Source: Owenia fusiformis (lineage: Eukaryota; Annelida; Polychaeta; Sabellida; Oweniidae). From it: DNA of 64,000 nucleotides. Numbering within the stretch: the first letter of the stretch is position 1; every line of letters begins with the position of its first letter. The notes under the pieces were generated by a model. That model was not told the origin of the DNA. It searched no databases and was given only the letters and a program-made list of their open reading frames with translations. The stretch covers positions 7,631,375 to 7,695,374 of the forward strand of contig CAIIXF020000005.1 in the NCBI GenBank assembly GCA_903813345.2. The letters are read 5' to 3'. Of this stretch, positions 6,201 to 57,274 are shown piece after piece. A program made the position numbers and the translations under genes.

Positions 6201-9200
6201 TTTTGATTGTCATAATGATAGCCATTATTACTTATATGTCACAGTTGGCTAAGCGTATGATAGATAAAAACAATACATATTTGAAAGATAAATATCATAG
6301 CTTAACTAAATCGTATTAGAATACTATACCATATACTCTGTATACATTTTCTATAGTTTATAGGGCTTGATATCAAACTCAAAATTTTTAAAAATAATTG
6401 CTGCTTAGTTTAGCCTACCTGTGTTGTTTGTATCCTTGACGGTTTCAATGTGAATGTTAATCAGTAATGTGTTAATCTATCGCAGGCGTAAGTTCATTCG
6501 ACATGCTCTCATAACATTTGTTCACTTCAGTAGAATTGAAAAGAAGGTCGGAGATTGAATTGAATTAATGTTTAGAGGATACGTCAGTCTCTTGTTTACT
6601 AGAAATATTATAATATTCATTATGTCGTCAATGTAATAGTGTTGTTGACATTTTAGAGTAATTCATGTTTTTTCAACATTATCTTGGAATTGGTATGTGA
6701 TATCTTGCAAGAGAATAAAAACAATTTAAGAGATTCAACTTCATGATAATATTATTTAGGGTTTTTGTGGAGGTCAATCTCCAACATAAACCTAGAATAT
6801 TGATATGTTAATGTTGAAATGTCATATAAATATGAATTATATTTGATTTGAATATGATAAAACAAACATTAAATTGTTATGACATTAATAAAACTAAATG
6901 GAAAAAACTACAAAACAATATCTGGATTCTTTTTTGAAAAGGATATAAGTCATGGATAGTAATGAAAAAAATTGATGCAATATTGATTGCTATTAAGTCA
7001 AATGTTATCTGTATTTACATGTACGTCAGGGCTTGTTTCATTTTTTTAGATCTTATCATTGAAATGTTGATATTAAAAATTAATATGTTTTCTATTTGTT
7101 AACCTAGAAAATATGTCACCTTTTTAGAAAATCAGTCAGTATTTTTTCTATTAATTTTTGACACATGCTCTTTGAATTTACTTTTTTTTATTTAAATAAA
7201 TAAATATAAAAATAAGTTTATGTATGTATACATCGGAGAGACTGAGTGTCAACAAGAAGATATATTACATTTCAAAAATGTTTAATTTACATGATCACGT
7301 ACTTGTGTAAAAGCAACAAATAGTATTTCATACAGTGTAATTATCCCATCGAACGAAGTTCGGAGGGATATAGGGAACGCCTCCGTCCGTCCGTCCGTAC
7401 GTACGTACGTCCGTCCGTATGTATGTCCGTCCGGGCAATAACTCAAATACCGTTAGCCCGATTTTGTTCATATTTTGTACACATATACCCAATGGGGGTA
7501 GAAGTTCTGCTGGAAAACCGATTTTCAAAATGGCCGCTCATTTAAAAATGGCGGCGATTTTAGTGCCGATTTTACAGTAATTTAGGTACTGCATATAAAA
7601 CTGTAATAGCAATATGTTTTAAATGTAAAAAAAGTTATATAGGACATTGATTAAGCTAGAAATGTAAATACAGAAGAAATACCTGGCAGCCATCTTGAAA
7701 AATGGCTGCCTCTGCACGTCTTTTTACGATATTTGCTGTAACTTGAAAAGTAGTGGAGCGATTTTGTTCATATTTGGTATGTGAATACTTTAAGCATGGC
7801 ACAATGTCTGATGACATTTTTGGTAGTAGGCGGCCATTTTGAAAAATGGCCGCCATTTTTACGTGTGTTATTTAACATTTTTTACTGTAAGTCAAAAAGT
7901 AGTGGAGCGATTTTGTTCATATTTGGTATGTGAATACTTTAAGCATGGCCCAATGTCTAATGACATTTTGGGTAGTAGGCGGCCATATTGAAAAATGGCC
8001 GCCATTTTTACGTGTTATTTTACATTTTTTACTATAACTTAAAAAGTAGTAGAGCGATTTTGTTCATATTTTATATGTGAATACTATAAGCATGGCACAC
8101 TGTCTAATGACACTTTGGGTAGTAGGTGGCCATTTTGAAAAATGGCCACCATATTTTACGTTTTTTACTATAACTTGAAAAGAAGTAGAGCGATTTTGTT
8201 CATATTTGATATGTGAATACTTATGAGCCTTGCACACTGTCTCATGACACTTGGCGTAGTAGGTGGCCATTTTAAAAAATGGCTGTCATTTTTACATTTT
8301 TTACTATAACTCAAAAAGTATTGGAGCGATTTTGTTCATATTTGATATGTGAATACTTTAAGCATGGCACATTGTCAAATAAAACTTAAGGGAGTAGTCG
8401 GCCATTTTGAAAAATGGCCACCATTTTTATGTGTGTTATTTTACATTTTTTATTATAATTCAAAAAGTAATAGAGCGATTTTGTTCATATTTGATATGTG
8501 AATACTGGTAAGGATTGCATACTGTCTTATGACATTTTGGGTAGTAGGCGGCCATTTTATAAAATGGCCAGCATTTACATGTATGCGTGGGCGATTTTTT
8601 TAAAATTTTATATGTGGCTACTTAAAAGCATATTACTTCTGCTGATGACAACTTGTCTAGTGAGCAACCATTTTGAAAATGGTGGCCTTTCTTATGGGTT
8701 TTATTTTACGATATTTGCTATATATTTTGTTTGTAAAATGCCAGCCATTTCTGTTCGATGGGATTCGCTACGCTTTGGCGTTGCCGTTGTTCTGGTTTGG
8801 AATTGCATGAATGGAGTTGCTGATCATATACACATGTTTGTGTTTACATACTGAACGTTTAACTGGGGTGATGTTAAGTTGGAGTTTAAGATGACATTGT
8901 TTTTCTTGAAACAACAATCTCATGGAGTCATCAGCTAGACTATTTACCTTTAATACAACGAATAAACAAACAGTTCAAGAAATGAATGATAAATAACTGG
9001 TCTTGTATTATTTGCTAATGATTTTAGCAGTAATAATGACTTCACCTAGCTGTACAGTATCCATTTGAAATTGATTTATAACTGGGAATTAACCTTACAT
9101 CCTTTGGTGATTTTTTCAAAAGTATATCTGAACTTAATATCCTTGATTTTTATTACTCAATACATTCTTAATGGAAATATAATGGTTTATTTTCAATGTG

Positions 9201-15200: not shown

Positions 15201-18200
15201 AATTGTCCGGCTACAATACTTTTAAGTTCATTTAGATATAACGATGCACTTTGTTTCCTCCTTAATTATGCTACAGATTTACAAATTAACAGTGTGAACC
15301 CTGTGTTTCAAATCAAAAAACGCTTTGAAGGCAAAAACATAGCTGAACAAATTCTCAAGTAAGTGCCATTTTGCTTTCTTCAGTTATTTAGCATTTGCAA
15401 TGAAATATCACAGAATACTTGGACATTGAAACCAAACTCAGTTTTAACATTTTCATGATTAGAAAACATGATCATTAATTTAAACTCATTTAATCAAATT
15501 GTGGATTTCAGTAAATTGGTGATTTATTTGTAGTATAGTATCAAAATACCAGTAAATATTATTCCCCCTGACATGACTGGGGTCTATTATCACTGCCCCC
15601 AGGATTCCGTGTTTGCAGAGCGCGGACGGAATTTGCCTCTGCCCGCGGAATTGCAGAATCAACTATTTTGGTCAATTTCCGCGGAATTTTCCGCAGAATC
15701 CATATATTTTCCAAAAGTTTAAAAAGTCAGTCTTACCTGTAACAATTTGACACGTTTTCAGTCAAATCCCTTGCAGAAATAACCCAAATTATGCGAAGTG
15801 AAAATTCTAAACGCCATCGTTTGATTTCTGCCGTTAGATGGCAGCATGTATGTAGTGACTGACTACCTGACTATCACGATATTTTCCCGTTTACTGGTTC
15901 GAAAACCATTAATATCCGCGGAATTTCTGCAGAATTAGCCCTTTCTTCTTGCAGAATTCACTAATTTCACTTGCAGAATTGAGCATTTTAACTTGCAGAA
16001 AACTGGGGGGAGTGTATTATGATAAATATATTTTGCAGGTATTACAAAACTAATGAGGTGGACAAGTTTACATATTCCAGAAGAACTACATCTGGTGGAG
16101 ATGTATCGGTGAGTAAACATTTCAAGTTTTGATGAACCCTGCATTTTTTGTAATGCTTTATGGGTGTTTCTTATTTTTTGAATTCTTGATATTATTTTTA
16201 TCCCATCGAACGAAGTTCGGAGGGATATAGGGAACGCCTCCGTCCGTCCTTCCGTCTGTCCATCCGTCTGTCCGTACATCCGTCCGTCCATCCGTCCGTC
16301 CGTACGTCGTCCGTCCATCCGTCCGTCCGGGCAATAACTCAAATACCGTTGGCCCGATTTTGTTCATATTTTGTACACATATACCCTATGGGAGTAGAAG
16401 TTCTGCTCGAAAGCCGATTTTCAAAATGGCCGCTCATTTCAAAATGGCGGCCATTTTAATGTCGAATTTACAGTAATTTAGGTGCAATATGTAAAACTAA
16501 TAGCAATATGTTTTAGATGTAAAAAAATTATATAGGACATTAATAAAGCTAGAAATGTAGATATTAAAGAAGCACATGCCAGCCATCTTGAAAAATGGCG
16601 GCCTTTACTCGTTATTTTACGATTTTTGCTGTAACTCGAAAAGTATTGGAGCGATTTTTTTCATATTTGGTATGTGAATACTATAAACATTGCGCACTGT
16701 CTAAAGACACTTTTGGTAGAAGGTGGCCATTTTATAAAATGGCCGCCATTTTGAAAAATGGCCGCCATTTTAACCTATTTTACTATAACTCGAAAAGTAG
16801 TGAAGCGATTTTGTTCATATTTGGTATGTGAATACTATAAGGATGGCACACTGTCTAATGACACTTTTGGTAGAAAAATGGCTGCCATTTTAACGTATTT
16901 TACTATAACTCGAAAAGTAGTGGAGCGATTTTGTTCATATTTGGTATGTGAATACTAACAGCATGACACATTATCCTATGACACTTTTAGTAGAAGGTGG
17001 CCATTTTGAAAAATGTTTTGAAAAATGGCCGCCATTTTAATGTATTTTACAATAATTCGAAAAGTAGTGAAGCGATTTTGTTCATATATGGTATGTGAAT
17101 ACTGTAAGCATGGCACACTGTCTAATGACACGTTTGGTAGAAGGCGGCCATTTTTGCTATATACTTTGTAAAAATGCCATCCATGGCTGTTAGATGGGAT
17201 TCGCTACGCTTTGGCGTTGCCGTTGTTCTGGTTATTTTTGGGATAAAATTGATGTCATTTAGAGCAAAAAAAGGCCTGTGTATTTGGCTGGTCTTGTGTT
17301 TTTTCAATGTTGTATTTTGAAGCCTTTCAGTCCATTTGCTCATCTATTTATTGCTTTTATAACTGAATACATAATTCTTTGAAGCAACTGCTGGGTATTC
17401 CTCATTGGTTCTTGTCTAGTTCCTTATATAATATATATGCAGTAGAGCAATAATTTAAAGCAATAAAAAAAATTATTTCACATTATTGCGTGGATGTTGA
17501 GGAAATAAAGCAACAAATGGTAAGATGCTTTTTTGTAGAAAATGTGGTTAGAAAGAACGAATATGGTGACAGTGTACGCATTGCCGGGTATTTTACGATG
17601 GTTCCCTGTGAAAGATACACAAGTGGTAAGTATAAATATGATTCAATGCTGAATTCATCTTTAATTTAATTTTTGAACTTTCTCATTGTCATTGATCTGT
17701 AGTTTGTTATACAGTATTTCATCACTTTTGGATGTTCAAATTATTTTATCATATTTCATCATTTTATATTTGAGGATATTGAAGATATATTCTATTGGGA
17801 TTTTAGTTTGAAGTGAGCCCACTGGAGAATGCCATAGAGACCATGGAACTGACCAATCAGAAGATAGCAATGTTGACAGAGCAACATCGACTCCATCCAG
17901 ACATGAGGGTTGACCCCCTAGGGATGACATTAAATGGTGTTGTGGATGCAGCAGTAGCTGGGGGTATCGCAAATTATAAGGTGAATATGTTAAGTATTAC
18001 TCTAGTTTCACTTTCAGCTGATTTTCTTCATAACAATAATGTACATGTTTTTCTGTTCAATGGGCCAAATGATGGAAAAATTAGACTGAAGTCTGAAGCA
18101 ACTTGAGAATCTGAAAAGTAATTCCTGTAAGATGAAAGATCTTATTTATTGGAATTTATTGGAAAATGCTTACAATGATGTCATTATTATTAAAAACAAT

Positions 18201-25468: not shown

Positions 25469-26172
25469 TATCGTACCTAACAAGAGGTACTATATTGAAG
25501 TCAGTTTGACAGGCGGCGGGCGGGCGGGCGGCGTCTCACTTTTCAGCTTGTCTACAGGTTTCCAGCCAAACCATTTGAGGGATTCATCTGAAATTTTCAG
25601 GGATGTTTCTACATATCAACGTCAAGAACTGATTAGTTTTTGGGCATTCTGGGTAAATTTTAAGGTGGCCATTTTGGATTTTCCGTCCTAAAATCTTTTC
25701 TTTCAAGACTTGTCTACAGGTTTCCAGCCAAACCATTTGAGGGATTCATCTGAAATTTTCAGGGATGTTTCTACATATCAACGTCAAGAACTGATTAGTT
25801 TTTGGGCATTCTGGGTTAATTTAAAGGTGGCCATTTTGGATTTTCCGTCCTAAAATCTTCACTTTCAAGACTTGTCTACAGGTTTTCAGCCAAACCATTT
25901 GAGGGATTCATCTGAAATTTTCAGGGATGTTTCTACATATCAACGTCAAGAACTGATTAGTTTTTGGGCATTCTGGGTAAATTTTAAGGTGGCCATTTTG
26001 GATTTTCCGCCCTAAAATCTTTACTTTCAAGACTTGTCTACAGGTTTCCAGCCAAACCGTTCAAATTTTTACATATGTTACACAGTGATAAGTTCTAGAA
26101 CTGATTAACTTTTATGCGGCCATCTTGCTTTCTTGGTCAACAAGACCACAATTCTGTGTTTTAGGTACGATA
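25469..26172 (+). mobile_element. HINE/pearl-like element, copy C (different family, 162-bp units)
   Basis: Inverted ends TATCGTACCTAA (from 25469) and TTAGGTACGATA (26161-26172). A GGCGGGCGGGCGGGCGGCG tetranucleotide tract follows at 25514-25532. Then come tandem units beginning CTTGTCTACAGGTTTCCAGC at 25547, 25709, 25871 and 26033, an exact 162-bp period; the last unit is partial. Each unit holds GGTGGCCATTTTGGATTTTC. The sequence differs from copies A/B but the layout is the same. Confidence 0.82.
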
Positions 26173-49500: not shown

Positions 49501-52500
49501 ATCCCACATGGGAGAAGAGTTGGTAAACACACCTGTGGCAGCACTGCCCAAGGCGACATCTATTGCACCTATAATAGAAGAGTTGAACATATTATGTGTA
49601 CTTGAAGAGAGTACATGTAAATTTCAAACGATGAATATATAGAGATATATTGCTCAAGTATTTTTTCTGGAATATGAATGTTTAATATCATAAGCTTTAG
49701 CAGTACAGTATACTGTACACTCCATTGTTATTGTTATACAGGAGCTGATCTTGGAACCAACAAGGGGGGCCCATATTTGAAGTCTGGAAAAAAAATTTTG
49801 GGCCCCTAAAACCAAAAAGTGGGCCCAAATTTTGGAAAGGACGATTCTCGGTTTGGAGAACTGTCTCCTGGGCTAATATTTTTTTTCATGAAAAATATAG
49901 AAATATTACCCAAATTAAACTATGAATATTCAAAAGAGGACATTTAAATCTACAAGATGTAAAAATAACAAATTGGTCTGAAGCAGGGATAACGCTCAAT
50001 TAGACCGATTCAATAAAATACAAGTCTCGATTTGGGGAAAAAAGTTCATAAGTGTACTGCGCTAATATTTTTTTGCGAAAAATCTAGAAATATTACCCAA
50101 ATTAAATTATGACTATTCAAAAAGGACATTCAAATCTATATTATGTAAAAAAATCAAATTTGTCCGAAGCAGGGATAATGCTCATTTAGATTGATGAACT
50201 TCGTTCTCCAAACCGAGAATCGTCCTTTAAAGTTTTTTCTTTATAATTTGGCCTAAAATTAAAAACTAATATTTTAAGCCCAATTTTTTTTTCTGGGCCC
50301 ACCCGAGGGACCCCCCTTCCAAGATCCGCCAGTGCATTTCTGTTTTATAGTATGATATCGAAGGCTTTACTTGGTCCTTACATTTTAGTCTAGTCAGTAT
50401 GAGGAGGGAATTTAAGGGACATAACTTTTCATATTCATTTTATGATTTTACATATTTCTTTAAATTAATAGATTTTAGTTTTTCAGCACTTGGATTTTGT
50501 GGCCATTTTATCTCCCTGAGATGCAATTTGGACCCCTGCAATAAAACTAGGCTAGAACTCCTACCATCCATGGAAGGGTTTCGTATTACTAATGTTGTAC
50601 CTGTTAAAGTGGCCATATCCAGGATAAGCCTAGGAGAATATGTGGATTGTACATAACACAGAGCATCTGCCAGGACCAGTCTTCCCTCAGCATCTGTATT
50701 GTCTATCTAAAAAAATAAGTTGAAATAAAGTTATTTTGGCTGTGTAGAGGCTATGGAGCATGCAATGAATGAGTCATCGTAGACTTCTTTTTTTATCATA
50801 TACATATACAGTGTGAAGTGTAAATGTGTATTCTATGAAGGCTAGGGGTCACAGGCCATCAAGGTACATGTAGATTTGTACAAAAAATTATGGTTAAAAT
50901 ATGTAAGAAGATATTTTACAAATGAAATCTTTATTTTTTACAAAGAATGTTTTGTCTGAGACATGCAATGTGCTGCTATTAACCTCTTTTTCTAACATAG
51001 TAGCCTGGCCAGAACAAGTCATGTCTCTATATTTTCTCAATAACTTTCTCATTTTTGAATATTTTTTCATAAAATTTTCACAGAATAAACTTTAAAGAAT
51101 TCCTAACATACAAATTATTTTATATGGTAAATGCCTCATTAATTTCATTGTTACAACCTTTGAAAAGTAATGTCATATTCTGTTGATGGGTCATTTTTGT
51201 CGCCATTTGAAAGCATCTTTTATCTCCATCAAGTATGACAATAGGCGAGTAGTAATGCCTTTTATGGGACGAGCAGTATAGAGGCTTGAGATCATGAGGT
51301 CTTGAAATAGTATGGTGGATTTAGAACACTAAAAAAGATAAATGATCCTCTATCAAAGACTGCAATCAAACTTGTAGACCATATTAGGACAAAATGTAAT
51401 AGGAGATTTTTCGTATCTTTTTAGAAAAAATGGCGACAAAAATGACCCATCAACAGAATATGACATTACTTTTTAAAAGGTTGTAGCAATAAAATTAATG
51501 AGGCATTTACCATATAAGAACAATTGTATGTTAGGAATTCTTTAAAGTTTATACTGTGAAAATTTCATGAAAAAATATTCAAAATTGAGAAAGTTATTGA
51601 GAAAATAGATTGGCATGACTTGTTCTGGCCAGGCTACTATCTTGTATAAAAATAGAATCAAAATGTTTATTGTAATATTCTTTCATGATTGAAGTACCTG
51701 AACAGTTTTTCCATTGCTTGCTGTCACTACATCACCAGGCTTAATAGCAGAACCACTAGGCATATTTTCTGCTAGTGGCATAACACCTAAAATGTAATTG
51801 TTATTTTAATCAAAATAAAATAAAAGAACAATGAATATAATGACATTGAGATGTTTTTATGTAGACATATTATGCTTTTGGAACAGCAGCACCATAACAT
51901 TTATAATGTGATGTGCGTTTACGTATAAAATCACATATTGTCAAACATTTGAATGGAAATAACTGAAACCATATACAAATAAGAAGGATTTTGAAAAATG
52001 AAGTGATTTGTATTTCAGTCTGGTAAATTTCTGCTGAAATTCTAACACTACAACGGCTAATTTGATCGGATTTTCGGAAAAGAAGGGGGTGCGTGCCCCT
52101 GGTGCTCCCCTCTAGATTCGCTAGTGCATTTTAACATTGACTGTTGGTGTGATATAGAGACAAGAGGTTGTCTCATGTTGAACATTGATAGATAGCCAGC
52201 TATAGTTAAAATATCGAGAAAAGGATGTCTCAGTGTCTCACATAATATTGTTGGCAGCTGTAGTTGAGATATAGAGAAGAGGTTGTCTGACATTTAACAT
52301 TAATAGGTAGCTGTAGTTGAGATACAGAAAGGAGAGGTTGTATCACATTTAACAGTAGCTGTATATCAGAAACAAGTCAAATTCTTTACTTCAGAGAATA
52401 TTTTTAATTTATTGAGACTTTCGACTAATATCCCTTAGTCTTTTTTTCAAAATATAACAGCATGTATACATTTATGTGACGTCATAAACAGACAATGGAA

Positions 52501-55500
52501 AATTTAATTATGACGTCACATAAATGTATACATGCTGTTATATTTTGAAAAAGACTAAGAGATATTAGTCATGTTAGTCGAAAGTCTCAATAAATTAAAA
52601 ATATTCTCTGAAGTAAAGAATTTGACTTGTTTCTGATATATTAACCAGAGAGATGAACTTACATAGAACAGTAGCTGTATAGTCTAGCTACAAGCCCTTG
52701 TGAACCCAAAACATCCCAACATCCTGTGTGGGAAGGTGTATAGTCAAGTAGAGGGAGGGGGGTCACAGAGGGATGTAGCTAGACTAGTAACTGAAGATGA
52801 GATATAGAGAAGAGATTGTCTCATATTTAACATTAATAGGTAGCTGCAGTTGAGATATAGAGAAGAGATTGTCTCACATTTAACATAAATAGGTAGCTGC
52901 AGTTGAGATATAGAGAAGAGGTTGTCTCACATTTAACATTAATAGGTAGCTGCAGTTGAGATATAGAGAAGAGGTTGTCTCACATTTAACATTAATAGGT
53001 AGCTGCAATTGAGATATATAGAGAAGAGGTTGTCTCACATTTAACATTAATAGGTAGCTGCAATTGAGATATAGAGAGAAGAGGTTGTCTCACATTTAAC
53101 ATTAATAGGTAGCTGCAATTGAGATATAGAGAGAAGAGTCCCTGCGACACAAGCAGCTCCTCCCATGTCTGCTCTCATGGCCTCCATTCCTGCTGAGGGT
53201 TTGATAGAAATGCCTCCTCTGAAGAAATAGTGGTCAAACAAATAAATAAAAATAAAAAAGTAATGGGGATATATTTAGAATGTGAAAGTATGAAATAATT
53301 TCATAAAATATGAAACATAACTAAGAATATAAATAAAATAAGACAAAATATCCCGATTTGTCGGGGGAACAATGTTTACTCTAAATCCTATATTTCATTC
53401 AAACTTATAAGCATTTTGCTCTAAAGCATTTGCTCTAAAATTCGACCAAATCAAATGAAATAACAAGCTTTTACGCTATCAGAAGTTAGATTTCTTCTAA
53501 AAAATGGAAGCCATTTTGAATTCAGTAGTCATCTTGGAAGATCTGAACCAAATCTATCAACTGATATTTGTGTGTTTTGATGGCTTTTAAACCTTGTTCG
53601 GGTGAGATTATTGAATACAGATTAAAAGCTGAACCAAAAATCTGTAAACTTTCCACAAGTTTAAAATTCAACATGCACAATGGCCATACGTGTCAAATGT
53701 GATACCCTTTCCTACAAGGGCAAGAGGGGCAGATGAATCGTCACTCCCAGTATATGAGACTTCAAGGAATACAGACTCCTCTTGTGATCCTTGCCCAACA
53801 GCCAGAAAGCACCCCATATTCCGTTCTTTTGCCCACTCTGCATTCCTAGAGATAAACAGCAATATTTTGATCAATCAACTTTTCGTTAATCCATGATTTG
53901 GCATTTAGATTTAACCTCTTAAAAAGAGTTTAAGATCAGAGCATTTTTATATTTTGACATTTTACTATAAAATTAATAAACAGCTGATCAATATGGTACA
54001 ATTATTAAAGGGATGAAGACTCATTTCACACATTTTAAAGCATAATTAAATATTTTCAAAGTTATACACATTTTAATGAAAGGTTCAGGTTACAAGGTGA
54101 TCCTATTTGTATTTTGAGGCTTATTAGAAAGGGAATAAGAAATACCAAGGTATTGAAAACACTTATAATTTCTAATATTCTAATATTAGTGATACATATG
54201 AAATCGTAAGTGCCATGATTGAACCACTACTTCAATATACTGACCCCTCATAGTCTTTCCTTGGAAAATACACATTTATGTAAATATCTTAGAGAATAAA
54301 AAATCAACTCTTTTTTTGGGTGATGTTACATGTATGTGTGCAACCTACGTACCTGGGTGTAATCTCAACCCCTTTTATATTTCCTATTTGTTCCTGAATA
54401 GTTTCAGCAAACTTCAGTGGTGTAAGATGATTAGATGGCGTCTCCATTAGCGACCTTGCAAAGTTTTGACCCTCAGCAAGAATTCTCCCAGTTTTCCAAC
54501 CCTGTACTGCTGAACGATCAGTTGAATGGCATTCAATTTCAGGAAGTGGTTTCTTCTCAGATTTATGACGGTCATAATTGAAGAGAGACAGAACTGCCCC
54601 TTCGGCTGCAGCTTCTGCATTTCCACAGGGATCAATCTCAATTTTTTGACTCACATCACGTAATGACCTTACACCAGCTGAAAATATAGAGCATAATTCT
54701 ATTTTCAAGGTAATATGCTTACTCTCTGGCATAGTACAGGGTGGTTAGCACAATGATGGCCACACCTGGAGCATGTTGTTCAAAGGGCTGTAACATTGTA
54801 ACTATCACTCTTATGGTCATGGAATTTTGTAGGCTAATAGGAAATTGAATTATTTACAAACAAATGAGTAAAATATCTAAATTGACATAGATATGAAGAA
54901 AATGCAGGGTTGCCATTTTTTACCACCCTGTACTATTGATCATCACTCTACTTATACATTAATGATAAAGAGAGCATCTACAAAACATGTCAAGCTAAAT
55001 CAAACAGGCATACAATTTTATCTCTATTTGATATTCAAAATATCACACAAACAAGTCATTAATATGCAAAATGTCACAACCTGCCATTTGTTACAGATGC
55101 TGAATGCTGGCTGCCTAATGCTGAATATCGAACACCAACCATCAAATGCTAAACACCAGCCACAAAAAGTTGGAGATGACATGACAATTTGACACAACGT
55201 GTGATGGTGATGTTACAACATAATAGCCCTATTTCCTCTCTATTACAAAGCAGGTGAATTTACACTACTATTTTCTTACAAATTATTTTTTATTTAACAC
55301 TGTAAGTTACACATTCCAGCTAATTTGCATAATGTGCATAACAAACCAGGATCTTACCAGCTATAGCAGATCTGACATTTTCACTTCGGGGATTCCATCC
55401 TTCTGCTTCATCATAGGCTGGCAGTTGAGGCTTCCCTAGTCCAACTAGACTGATGCTGGTGTATGTGTCATCTGCTCCATGAAGAACACGACAAGCCCCT

Positions 55501-57274
55501 TGCTTAAGATCTCCACCACAACTGTAACAAATATTAGAACTATCATATCTCAATCTCAGGCTTCCCTGGTCCAACTAGGCTGATGCTGGTGTATGTGTCA
55601 TCTGCTCCATGAAGAACACGACAAGCCCCTTGCTTAAGATCTCCTCCACAACTGTAACAAATATTAGAACTATCATATCTCAATATCAGGCTTCCCTGGT
55701 CCAACAAGGCTGATGCTGGTGTATGTCATCTGCTCCATGAAGAACACGACAAGCCCCTTGCTTAAGATCTCCACCACAACTGTAACAAATATTAGAACTA
55801 TCATATCTCAATCTCAGGCCTCAAAAAACTTCTTATCCTTTTAATAATTGACTGAATAATTTTGAGAACTGATGAGTGAACATGTGTAGATAAAAAAGGA
55901 CAATAAAGTTATGATATATAGTATAACAGAAATTTAATAACCATCCTTAAATGTAAATTGATAAACAGGAAAACAGGTCAAAGCAAGAACAGCAATTACC
56001 AATTTGTTACTTTTAGTTTAGAGACTTACACTTGAACAAGTTGTGTTAATTTTCCACCAGTCTTTGTATCTATTTCCCTTGCAGTTGGGGTAAGTTCAAC
56101 ATGTTTATCTTCCGTCACATAAGCTCCAACAATCAGCCCCCGTCGAGACTGGAATTTAAGGATGCATGTATATCTATGAATTACAATGAAGTAAAATCTT
56201 ACTAAATTGAGCATCTTAAGTTGTATAGGAAAATTCTCTGGTTTCAGCCAATTTTTTAGAGCCTGGGATTCAAGAGGCTCAAGAGGTTAAGGTTCAGCTG
56301 GAAAGTAACATTTTGGTAAAAAATTGCTATACCTGCACATGTTATTTTCTGGTACAGAATTAAGTATGAAGGCATATGTGTATTTCCTTGCTTTTTTCAG
56401 GAAAGTATCATTACACTGTCTACTTTTAGTAAACCTGGAAACAGGTCAATGGTAGCTCCTGTGTTGTCTGGAAACTTTGAAAGAAAATTTGGAAAAAAAG
56501 AAATTGTGAAATATCAGAATTTCCTGGAGTTCCCATTGAACTCCTACTAGATATTCTTAAAGAAGACAGTGTAATGATACTTTCCTGAAAAAAGCAAGGC
56601 AATTGACACATGTCTTCTTACTTTATTTTGTACCAGAAAATAACATGTGCTGGTATAGCAATTTTTTACCAAAATGTTACTTTCCAGCTGTACCTTAAAT
56701 GCAAACCATTTGTATATTTTGGATTGCTTGTGGTTAAGCTCACAACTTTGCGGCCTATTGTATTTTCTCTAACATTTTATTTTAGAAAAGATCATCATGG
56801 CTAAAATCATAATATACTTCACAGGTTTATGGGGGGTTTACTGCGCATATAATATAGGTTACTCACTTCGTGAGGCATGTTAGATTTTGAAACTTATGTA
56901 TAGCAGAATTAGTCACAGTTATCCCATTCCCGGAACGTCCGGGAACGGGATAAAGTCACAGCCTTTGACATGTCTAGGTTAAATATAGGAATATGGTTAT
57001 TCGGAATGAGTTATATGTTCCTGAAAATAAGACTCAGATTACTTAATCTGGATTTTATTTCTTTGCTGAATTATCACCCACCATTTTTCAAAAAATTGTA
57101 CTACATATATACATGCACTTTAATCAAGTATTTTGTTATCCTTACCGGGCTAGATTCACAGTGGTGTAATCGTTTAACCAAATTACATTTGTTTTTCTTT
57201 GTTATTTGAGCTCGAAAAGCAGCATTTATTGTTTTTAAATGTAAATTTGAAATGTACTTCATGGGCGCTGACAT
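46579..57274 (-). CDS. LAP3: LAP3, cytosolic/mitochondrial leucine aminopeptidase (M17), complete
   Basis: Twelve minus-strand exons: 57274-57146, 56148-56030, 55521-55358, 54677-54353, 53845-53690, 53218-53094, 51786-51698, 50706-50601, 49568-49489, 48930-48781, 47554-47461, 46640-46579. The join is in phase: 532 residues against about 519 in human. The protein removes N-terminal leucine and other residues as a di-metal hexamer. Conserved metal and catalytic stretches are intact: [54 protein letters not shown] and [12 protein letters not shown]. The first exon encodes a basic, hydroxylated leader ([20 protein letters not shown]), compatible with a mitochondrial pre-sequence. An ACTTCCGG ETS-type motif lies 37 nt upstream of the ATG. 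Oddities: intron 9 needs a GC donor, exon 6 has seeded an intronic minisatellite, and part of exon 3 is triplicated. Confidence 0.95.
46810..46850. repeat. Perfect 18-bp stem, 5-nt loop hairpin in LAP3 intron 11
   Basis: GTTTAACCAGAGACATAT, loop GTTTT, then the exact reverse complement. It is the shortest perfect hairpin in the window. Its function is unknown. Confidence 0.85.
49741..50337 (-). mobile_element. Poly-G/poly-C terminal foldback element, copy 2, with an element nested inside
   Basis: The outer ends (GATCTTGGAACCAACAAGGG on the left, CTTCCAAGATCCGCCAGTGC on the right) are those of the 14786 element in reverse. Inside, GGACGATTCTCGGTTTGGAG (49839) and CTCCAAACCGAGAATCGTCC (ends 50215) form a second inverted pair. 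That pair encloses two tandem copies of about 180 bp (GCTAATATTTTTTT to GAAGCAGGGATAA). It lies in LAP3 intron 8 (49569-50600). Confidence 0.72.
51000..51637. mobile_element. TA-flanked MITE, 638 bp, 210-bp inverted ends, in LAP3 intron 7
   Basis: Left GTAGCCTGGCCAGAACAAGT, right ACTTGTTCTGGCCAGGCTAC, paired with few changes for about 210 bp to CATTTTTGTCGCCATTT. TA lies directly outside both ends (50998-50999, 51638-51639). It makes up about two thirds of the intron 50707-51697. Confidence 0.85.
52105..53139. repeat. LAP3 exon-6-derived minisatellite, 53-55 bp units, old and young blocks
   Basis: The young block, 52799-53139, has six full units of GAGATATAGAGAAGAGGTTG-TCTCACATTTAACATTAATAGGTAGCTGCAGTT, then runs into the functional exon edge. 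The old block, about 52105-52345, has about four diverged units. On the minus strand each young unit repeats the codons for [14 protein letters not shown], the AAAT/GTGAGA donor, and an internal TGCAG acceptor-like site. The 3' 45 nt of exon 6 is therefore the end unit of the array. Confidence 0.9.
52364..52638. mobile_element. Near-perfect palindromic MITE, 275 bp, inside the minisatellite
   Basis: The left arm TATCAGAAACAAGTCAAATT runs to ATTTATGTGACGTCAT. The right arm is its reverse complement with very few changes, leaving a spacer of about 24 bp (AAACAGACAATGGAAAATTT). TA is present outside both ends. It separates the old and young blocks of the LAP3 minisatellite. Confidence 0.85.
55070..55205 (-). 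repeat. GTCACAACC/TTGGTG-type dispersed repeat, reverse copy
   Basis: The reverse complement carries CCAACTTTTTGTGGCTGGTG and GGTTGGTGTTCGAT, then CTGTAACAAATGGCAGGTTG, in the same order as in the 18991-19123 element. It lies in LAP3 intron 3. Confidence 0.6.
55428..55816. repeat. Tandem triplication (130 bp) of LAP3 exon 3 5' part plus acceptor
   Basis: TGCTTAAGAT recurs at 55501, 55631 and 55759; the third copy has lost two bases (GTATGTCATC for GTATGTGTCATC). Each copy keeps the minus-strand acceptor TTGTTACAG and about 90 nt of exon. Only the copy nearest exon 4 continues into the full exon and a donor. The two extra copies reach a TGA with no donor. Confidence 0.92.
56291..56694. mobile_element. 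TTAA-flanked MITE, 404 bp, in LAP3 intron 1
   Basis: TTAA is directly outside both ends (56287-56290, 56695-56698), as for piggyBac-type insertions. The inverted ends GGTTCAGCTGGAAAGTAACA and TGTTACTTTCCAGCTGTACC pair for about 130 bp with short gaps (through AAAAAAGCAAGG). Confidence 0.8.

Follow-up and report, generated by a model that had tools for sequence, protein, structure and literature searches.

The last part of exon 6 of a LAP3-like gene in Owenia fusiformis, together with its splice donor, heads a tandem array that continues into intron 6. We think it probable, and hold the view with good confidence, that this array is a minisatellite of the mirage type, which was born at the exon/intron boundary, has been kept by exchange between its units and is mostly ignored by splicing. 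Exon-edge duplication is not peculiar to LAP3 exon 6, since like duplications occur at LAP3 exon 3, in a cluster of M17 paralogs and at 12 of 197 exon edges in three other gene families.

On its minus strand, the window, by which we mean the whole stretch of 64,000 nucleotides that was analysed, contains a LAP3-like gene for an M17 leucine aminopeptidase. A local tblastn search, with human LAP3 as the query, gave ten matches that are ordered along the window, the last of them at E 0.12. Exon numbers are taken from a first-pass annotation of the window, and the numbers 3, 6 and 7 follow that count; no first exon was located. The boundary of exon 6 was placed by reading frame and splice consensus (a slash marks splice points below), and translation joins exon 6 to exon 7 in frame. 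The features around exon 6 are the following.

53218-53094, minus strand: LAP3 exon 6, 125 nt, from reading frame, family match and sequence.
53093-51787, minus strand: LAP3 intron 6, from sequence and translation.
53093-53088, minus strand: presumed authentic donor of intron 6, AAT/GTGAGA, its use read from the reading frame.
51786-51698, minus strand: LAP3 exon 7, with its acceptor at 51787, from sequence, M17 alignment and translation.
52787-53132, minus strand: close array, 53-55 bp unit, ~6.5 copies (TRF period 53, score 586).
53093, 53038, 52983, 52930 and 52877, minus strand: intact array donors; the donor is lost at 52824 (ATGAGA).
52115-52360, minus strand: older diverged units, with donor-like sites at 52346, 52291 and 52241.
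52362-52640, no strand: DNA-transposon- or MITE-like palindrome of two long inverted repeats, with 70-nt arms that are 99% complementary.

The first unit of the array is the last 45 nt of exon 6 (53138-53094), starting with CTCTTC at 53138, which agrees with the proposal of the first-pass annotation that the exon end and its donor head the tandem array. Successive units of the close array are spaced by 55, 55, 53, 53, and 53 nt. Every close unit had been claimed to retain both the donor and an internal TGCAG; this holds for TGCAG, which is present in 6/6 close units and is followed by a partial seventh unit with TTCAG, but GTGAGA is retained in only five of the six, the exon unit included, and the sixth unit reads ATGAGA. 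The 19-nt segment that the annotation had described between TGCAG and GT is CTACCTATTAATGTTAAAT. The exon unit and its neighbor (U1-U2) are 98% identical and U1-U6 are 91% identical, and units past the sixth have identities of 52-89% to the others. Older diverged copies had also been noticed earlier. The 53-bp form of the unit (minus 2) is restricted to intronic units and would shift the frame if it were in the exon. At the threshold of the unit scan, the final ~330 nt of intron 6 contained no unit.

The transposon-like palindrome, which was overlooked in the first pass, separates the close units from the older ones. Its half (~149 bp) has dozens of matches in the genome at 97-99% identity, among the best 40 of 195 candidates scored, and by eye the palindrome is flanked by TA. 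Other repeats in the window include satellite-like arrays at 7685-8576 and 16624-17154, with ~120-149 bp units and a GGCGGCCATTTT palindrome, similar units of which are present at two further loci (L029, L032), and a tandem array at 25547-26058 (162-bp x3.2).

The direction in which the array formed is suggested by its coding content. Seventy residues of exons 6-7 align ungapped to the M17 enzymes PDB 3h8e and 1lam, and the counterpart of the SQLQLPINV region in 3h8e is '...lelqlpvnlvc...'. Because the exonic unit aligns without gaps and in register to these enzymes, the alignment supports the view that it is ancestral coding sequence and that the array was derived from the exon, as the first-pass annotation had argued from the same peptide.

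To place the splice sites of the array on a scale, they were scored with a matrix for which the same genome supplied 73 donors and 73 acceptors. The authentic intron 6 donor scores 6.6, at the 14th percentile of the 73 donors, and the four array donors that follow have exactly the same letters. Internal acceptors of units 1-6 fall between the 4th and 22nd percentile of the 73, and those from the fourth unit onward do not exceed the 5th percentile of these real acceptors. Some misuse of the array donors is plausible, because the authentic donor is weak and the next four are identical to it. Translation places a stop shortly past LPINVK when donors 2-5 are used (four were modelled); when 1-4 of the 19-nt segments are included the stop likewise comes within a few codons, which bears out the earlier claim that their inclusion shifts the frame. 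Since all modelled alternative splices lead to a premature stop, we infer that only splicing at the donor with the shortest resulting exon can yield a functional transcript and that splicing most likely ignores the array, as a neutral by-product.

A second array lies at the edge of another exon of the same gene and was likewise missed in the first pass. It is the acceptor-side mirror image of the donor-side array at exon 6, and its features are these.

55428-55819, minus strand: second LAP3 exon-edge array, 130 bp x 3 (TRF score 735, and sequence).
55780, 55652 and 55522, minus strand: acceptors of this array; each unit includes an acceptor and ~90 nt of exon 3.
55358-55521, minus strand: LAP3 exon 3; its first part coincides with the last 130-bp unit.

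The three acceptors score identically, and either upstream acceptor, if used, leads to a stop codon on translation. A second M17 gene is present on contig C3 as a tandem cluster of four (L006 at C3:15096500-15102500, and L034-L036). On the acceptor side, three of its four copies have arrays that could be counted, with 6, 6, and 7 units in 379, 379, and 420 nt, respectively; in the fourth copy the anchor used for counting was not found. Because these copies differ by one unit while the exon edge is unchanged, the cluster shows an array growing or shrinking. A further array in the cluster, with 30-bp units (TRF 16.5 copies), overlaps the start of another exon. Tandem arrays with periods of at least 25 were not detected in a third M17 gene (L007), and thus edge arrays are not universal.

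For a wider estimate, three families were sampled without prior view of their repeats, namely Cpn60/TCP1, proteasome, and tRNA-synthetase-1. The survey used 49/60 Cpn60/TCP1, 26/29 proteasome, and 27/27 synthetase matches, which gave 102 exons and 197 usable edges; long single-frame matches, a small contig, and scattered single matches outside the stretches examined were left out, and 4/98 Cpn60/TCP1 and 3/54 synthetase edges were unusable. Cpn60/TCP1 and proteasome edges were placed manually and verified for AG and GT/GC, and synthetase edges were set by an automatic rule without correction by eye. An edge was called duplicated when a local duplication reached at least 12 nt on either side of it with a score of at least 28. 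The counts exclude the M17 paralogs (L006 and L007) and six creatine-kinase exons (L020, L021), at whose loci no array of period at least 15 was found. Also uncounted are a second array at L022, the exon of which is outside the match list, and a marginal 30-bp acceptor duplication at L014 with a score of 27. It should be noted that two further loci (L009 and L010) hold mitochondrial-type creatine kinase genes with a single open frame, two close copies that are possibly retrocopies.

Duplicated edges amounted to 7/94 in Cpn60/TCP1, 4/52 in proteasome, and 1/51 in synthetase genes, for a total of 12/197 (6.1%, ~1 in 16). In the first two families, the duplicated edges have scores of 34-60, and the maximum of shuffled sequence was 13 in 252 trials. 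Boundary-spanning arrays are therefore common in the sampled genes. Local duplications also reached the threshold at 155/1443 non-coding points in Cpn60/TCP1 and proteasome genes and at 65/767 in synthetase genes (together 10.0%), and at 7/168 exon-interior points in the first two families. Edges thus do not lie within duplications more often than non-coding points do (6.1% vs 10.0%). An excess at edges is visible only under a null in which founder units are placed at random: among arrays of period at least 25, 11/30 span an edge vs 3.21 expected (pooled P = 6e-5). Most of this comes from Cpn60/TCP1 (7/14 vs 1.47 expected, P = 7e-5); proteasome (3/10 vs 1.23 expected, P = 0.11) and synthetase genes (1/6 vs 0.51 expected, P = 0.42) are not significant on their own. 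Taken together, these numbers suggest a preference of arrays for exon edges that comes chiefly from one family and is absent in the point counts.

The arrangement of the copies was compared at 14 edges, which comprise 11 of the 12 survey edges, the two of LAP3, and one of the C3 cluster. The extra copies lie on the intron side at 14/14. Flanking copies were selected at 22/32 identities or more, and the splice dinucleotide is kept in 53 of these 57 copies. Mismatches affect 4/114 positions of the splice dinucleotides vs 113/1710 elsewhere (Fisher P = 0.24), so that in these copies the dinucleotides are not lost preferentially over other positions. Single genes can have several such arrays. One (L017, C11:134300-143000), which we take to be a CCT2-like gene, has three edge-spanning arrays (28/118 bp, 53 bp x20, and 96 bp x4). 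Another (L022 and L038, C3:18448600-18452200), presumably PSMB5-like, carries arrays at the acceptor edges of two exons, and in the last of these several 83-bp units are nearly identical.

The mechanism behind the exon 6 array is most likely an ordinary one. A tandem duplication would have arisen across the boundary of exon 6 and intron 6, and the array would then have grown and shrunk by unequal exchange or slippage, as the relationships between units and the one-unit difference in the C3 cluster suggest. Exchange between units would rebuild the same boundary each time, so that the unit on the exon side continues to work as an exon edge, and the gene may tolerate the array because the boundary is restored in this way. 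The spliceosome would most likely pick the donor that gives the shortest exon, consistent with exon definition, and the remaining donors and 19-nt segments would, by their translation, produce premature stops if used. Units far from the exon decay, with the transposon-like element lying between them and the close units. Similar duplications lie at other exon edges of the genome, on donor and acceptor sides, as the sample of three families shows.

Other origins or roles for the array are conceivable. The spare donors and 19-nt poison exons could tune LAP3 output by way of stop-bearing, decaying transcripts. The serial arrangement of five identical donors and of six TGCAG sites, the premature stop in all modelled alternative products, and the lack of depletion of splice dinucleotides in flanking copies would all suit such a regulatory array, which we nevertheless regard as unlikely: like structures lie at the edges of unrelated housekeeping genes, GT is lost in the sixth close unit and the older units have diverged, and the acceptors from the fourth unit on are among the weakest. 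A still less likely possibility, and in our view a very improbable one, is that intron 6 itself was born from duplicated exon sequence by the tandem-duplication model of Rogers. The array does begin at the exon edge, and by our reading two M17 paralogs have introns elsewhere in the corresponding stretch. However, the Rogers model requires AG/GT at the duplicated point, whereas the boundary here is AAT/GTGAGA and the internal AG is 19 nt off, so that splicing out one unit would leave the frame broken; moreover, at the threshold of the scan the final ~330 nt of the intron contained no unit. A Rogers-type gain at exon 6 was accordingly rejected, given the lack of AG/GT at the boundary and the stop that follows inclusion of the 19 nt.

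We give equally little credence, and even less than to intron gain, to two further explanations. If a pre-existing intronic minisatellite had been captured as exon when an internal donor came into use, the frequent local duplications in non-coding sequence (155/1443 and 65/767 points) would offer ready material, but the exonic unit codes, in register and without insertion, for ancestral LAP sequence, and the 53-bp form is found in intronic units only. Exonization of a minisatellite is thus disfavored by the ancestral, in-register coding of the exonic unit. False tandem copies made during assembly would hardly differ from each other in the ordered fashion observed here, nor would they account for the older units and transposon-like element beyond the close array or for the identical reading of the C3 array in two separate gene copies. 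An introner-like element was also considered and rejected: near-identical copies would be expected in many genes, and a 219-bp probe (exon 6 and the first units) matched the 498-Mb assembly five times at E <= 0.001, each time at the LAP3 locus, in a search that omits very common words and scores the best candidates only. The mirage-type origin at the exon boundary remains our preferred reading.

What makes this reading interesting is how often such arrays occur in the Owenia genome, and that they line up identical splice sites in natural series. Serial identical donors and acceptors in housekeeping genes are ready-made experiments in splice-site choice, for which exon definition predicts the shortest exon and intron definition predicts the shortest intron. 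More broadly, exon edges could be preferred sites of minisatellite birth or survival, with ~6% of them having duplicated splice sites, and could be a widespread, continuing source of spare sites and candidate introns that is independent of amphioxus; we advance this only tentatively and consider it somewhat doubtful. If true, it would provide a natural test of how the spliceosome chooses among several identical sites, and if the frequency across the genome matches that of the sample, the arrays would be raw material for new introns outside chordates.

Several known systems resemble the LAP3 arrays in part. A 1995 study reportedly described a minisatellite in a human interferon-induced transcript that provides multiple splice donor sites; we take this transcript to be IFI6/G1P3, with a 12-bp unit and with several donors in use, and it is like LAP3 in that a minisatellite supplies several donors. 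Tandem-duplication intron gain shares the duplication beside splice signals and differs in its need for AG/GT. In human duplicated genes, minisatellites that span exon-intron boundaries as internal tandem repeats are able to move introns or to create them (PMC2812944); these are primate-specific duplicated genes, whereas the Owenia arrays are in housekeeping genes and a paralog cluster. The nearest annelid case is that of earthworm metallothionein genes, with minisatellite-sized repeats in intron 1, but unlike at LAP3, the available text does not state that they span an exon edge (PMC12783039). Among the matches listed from the open-access literature there was no report of boundary-spanning arrays outside chordates, which does not demonstrate their absence from print.

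The closest counterparts are the amphioxus mirages, described as tandem duplications of minisatellite type that take in an exon/intron boundary, on either side, in Adh3 and the globins BflGb6/BflGb9, with length instability and with AG or GT in many, not all, units (PMC3087553). PGBD5 and troponin C were later added (PMC3902484), and splicing is reported to be undisturbed (PMC3087553, PMC3902484), which, by these accounts, was checked by RT-PCR, whereas the splicing of LAP3 is read here from the sequence. The LAP3 units likewise span an exon/intron boundary at exon 6 and also at exon 3, as placed by frame and consensus; the authentic exon edge is the terminal unit and the extra units are intronic, as at all 14 edges; and GT is kept in 5/6 close LAP3 units, as the dinucleotide is in 53/57 flanking copies. 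As to concerted evolution and copy-number change, LAP3 itself shows a gradient of unit identity, and a change in unit number was seen in the C3 cluster, with 6, 6, and 7 units in three of the four gene copies. The unit lengths of 53-55 and 130 bp are unlike those of the amphioxus mirages, and so is the host, the genome of which does not look cephalochordate. An amphioxus sarcoplasmic Ca-binding protein query had one match in the genome, at 26% identity, and the matched gene scores 2.7e-24 against PDB 1q80/2scp vs 1.1e-6 against 2sas. We take the former to be the protein of the annelid Nereis and the latter that of amphioxus. A COX1 query had no match, presumably since the assembly lacks the mitochondrion, and the GFP family gave 0 candidates, with no signal in control genomes either; neither result, nor the creatine-kinase genes, helps to place the host. 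In the structural features that were compared, the LAP3 arrays agree with mirages.
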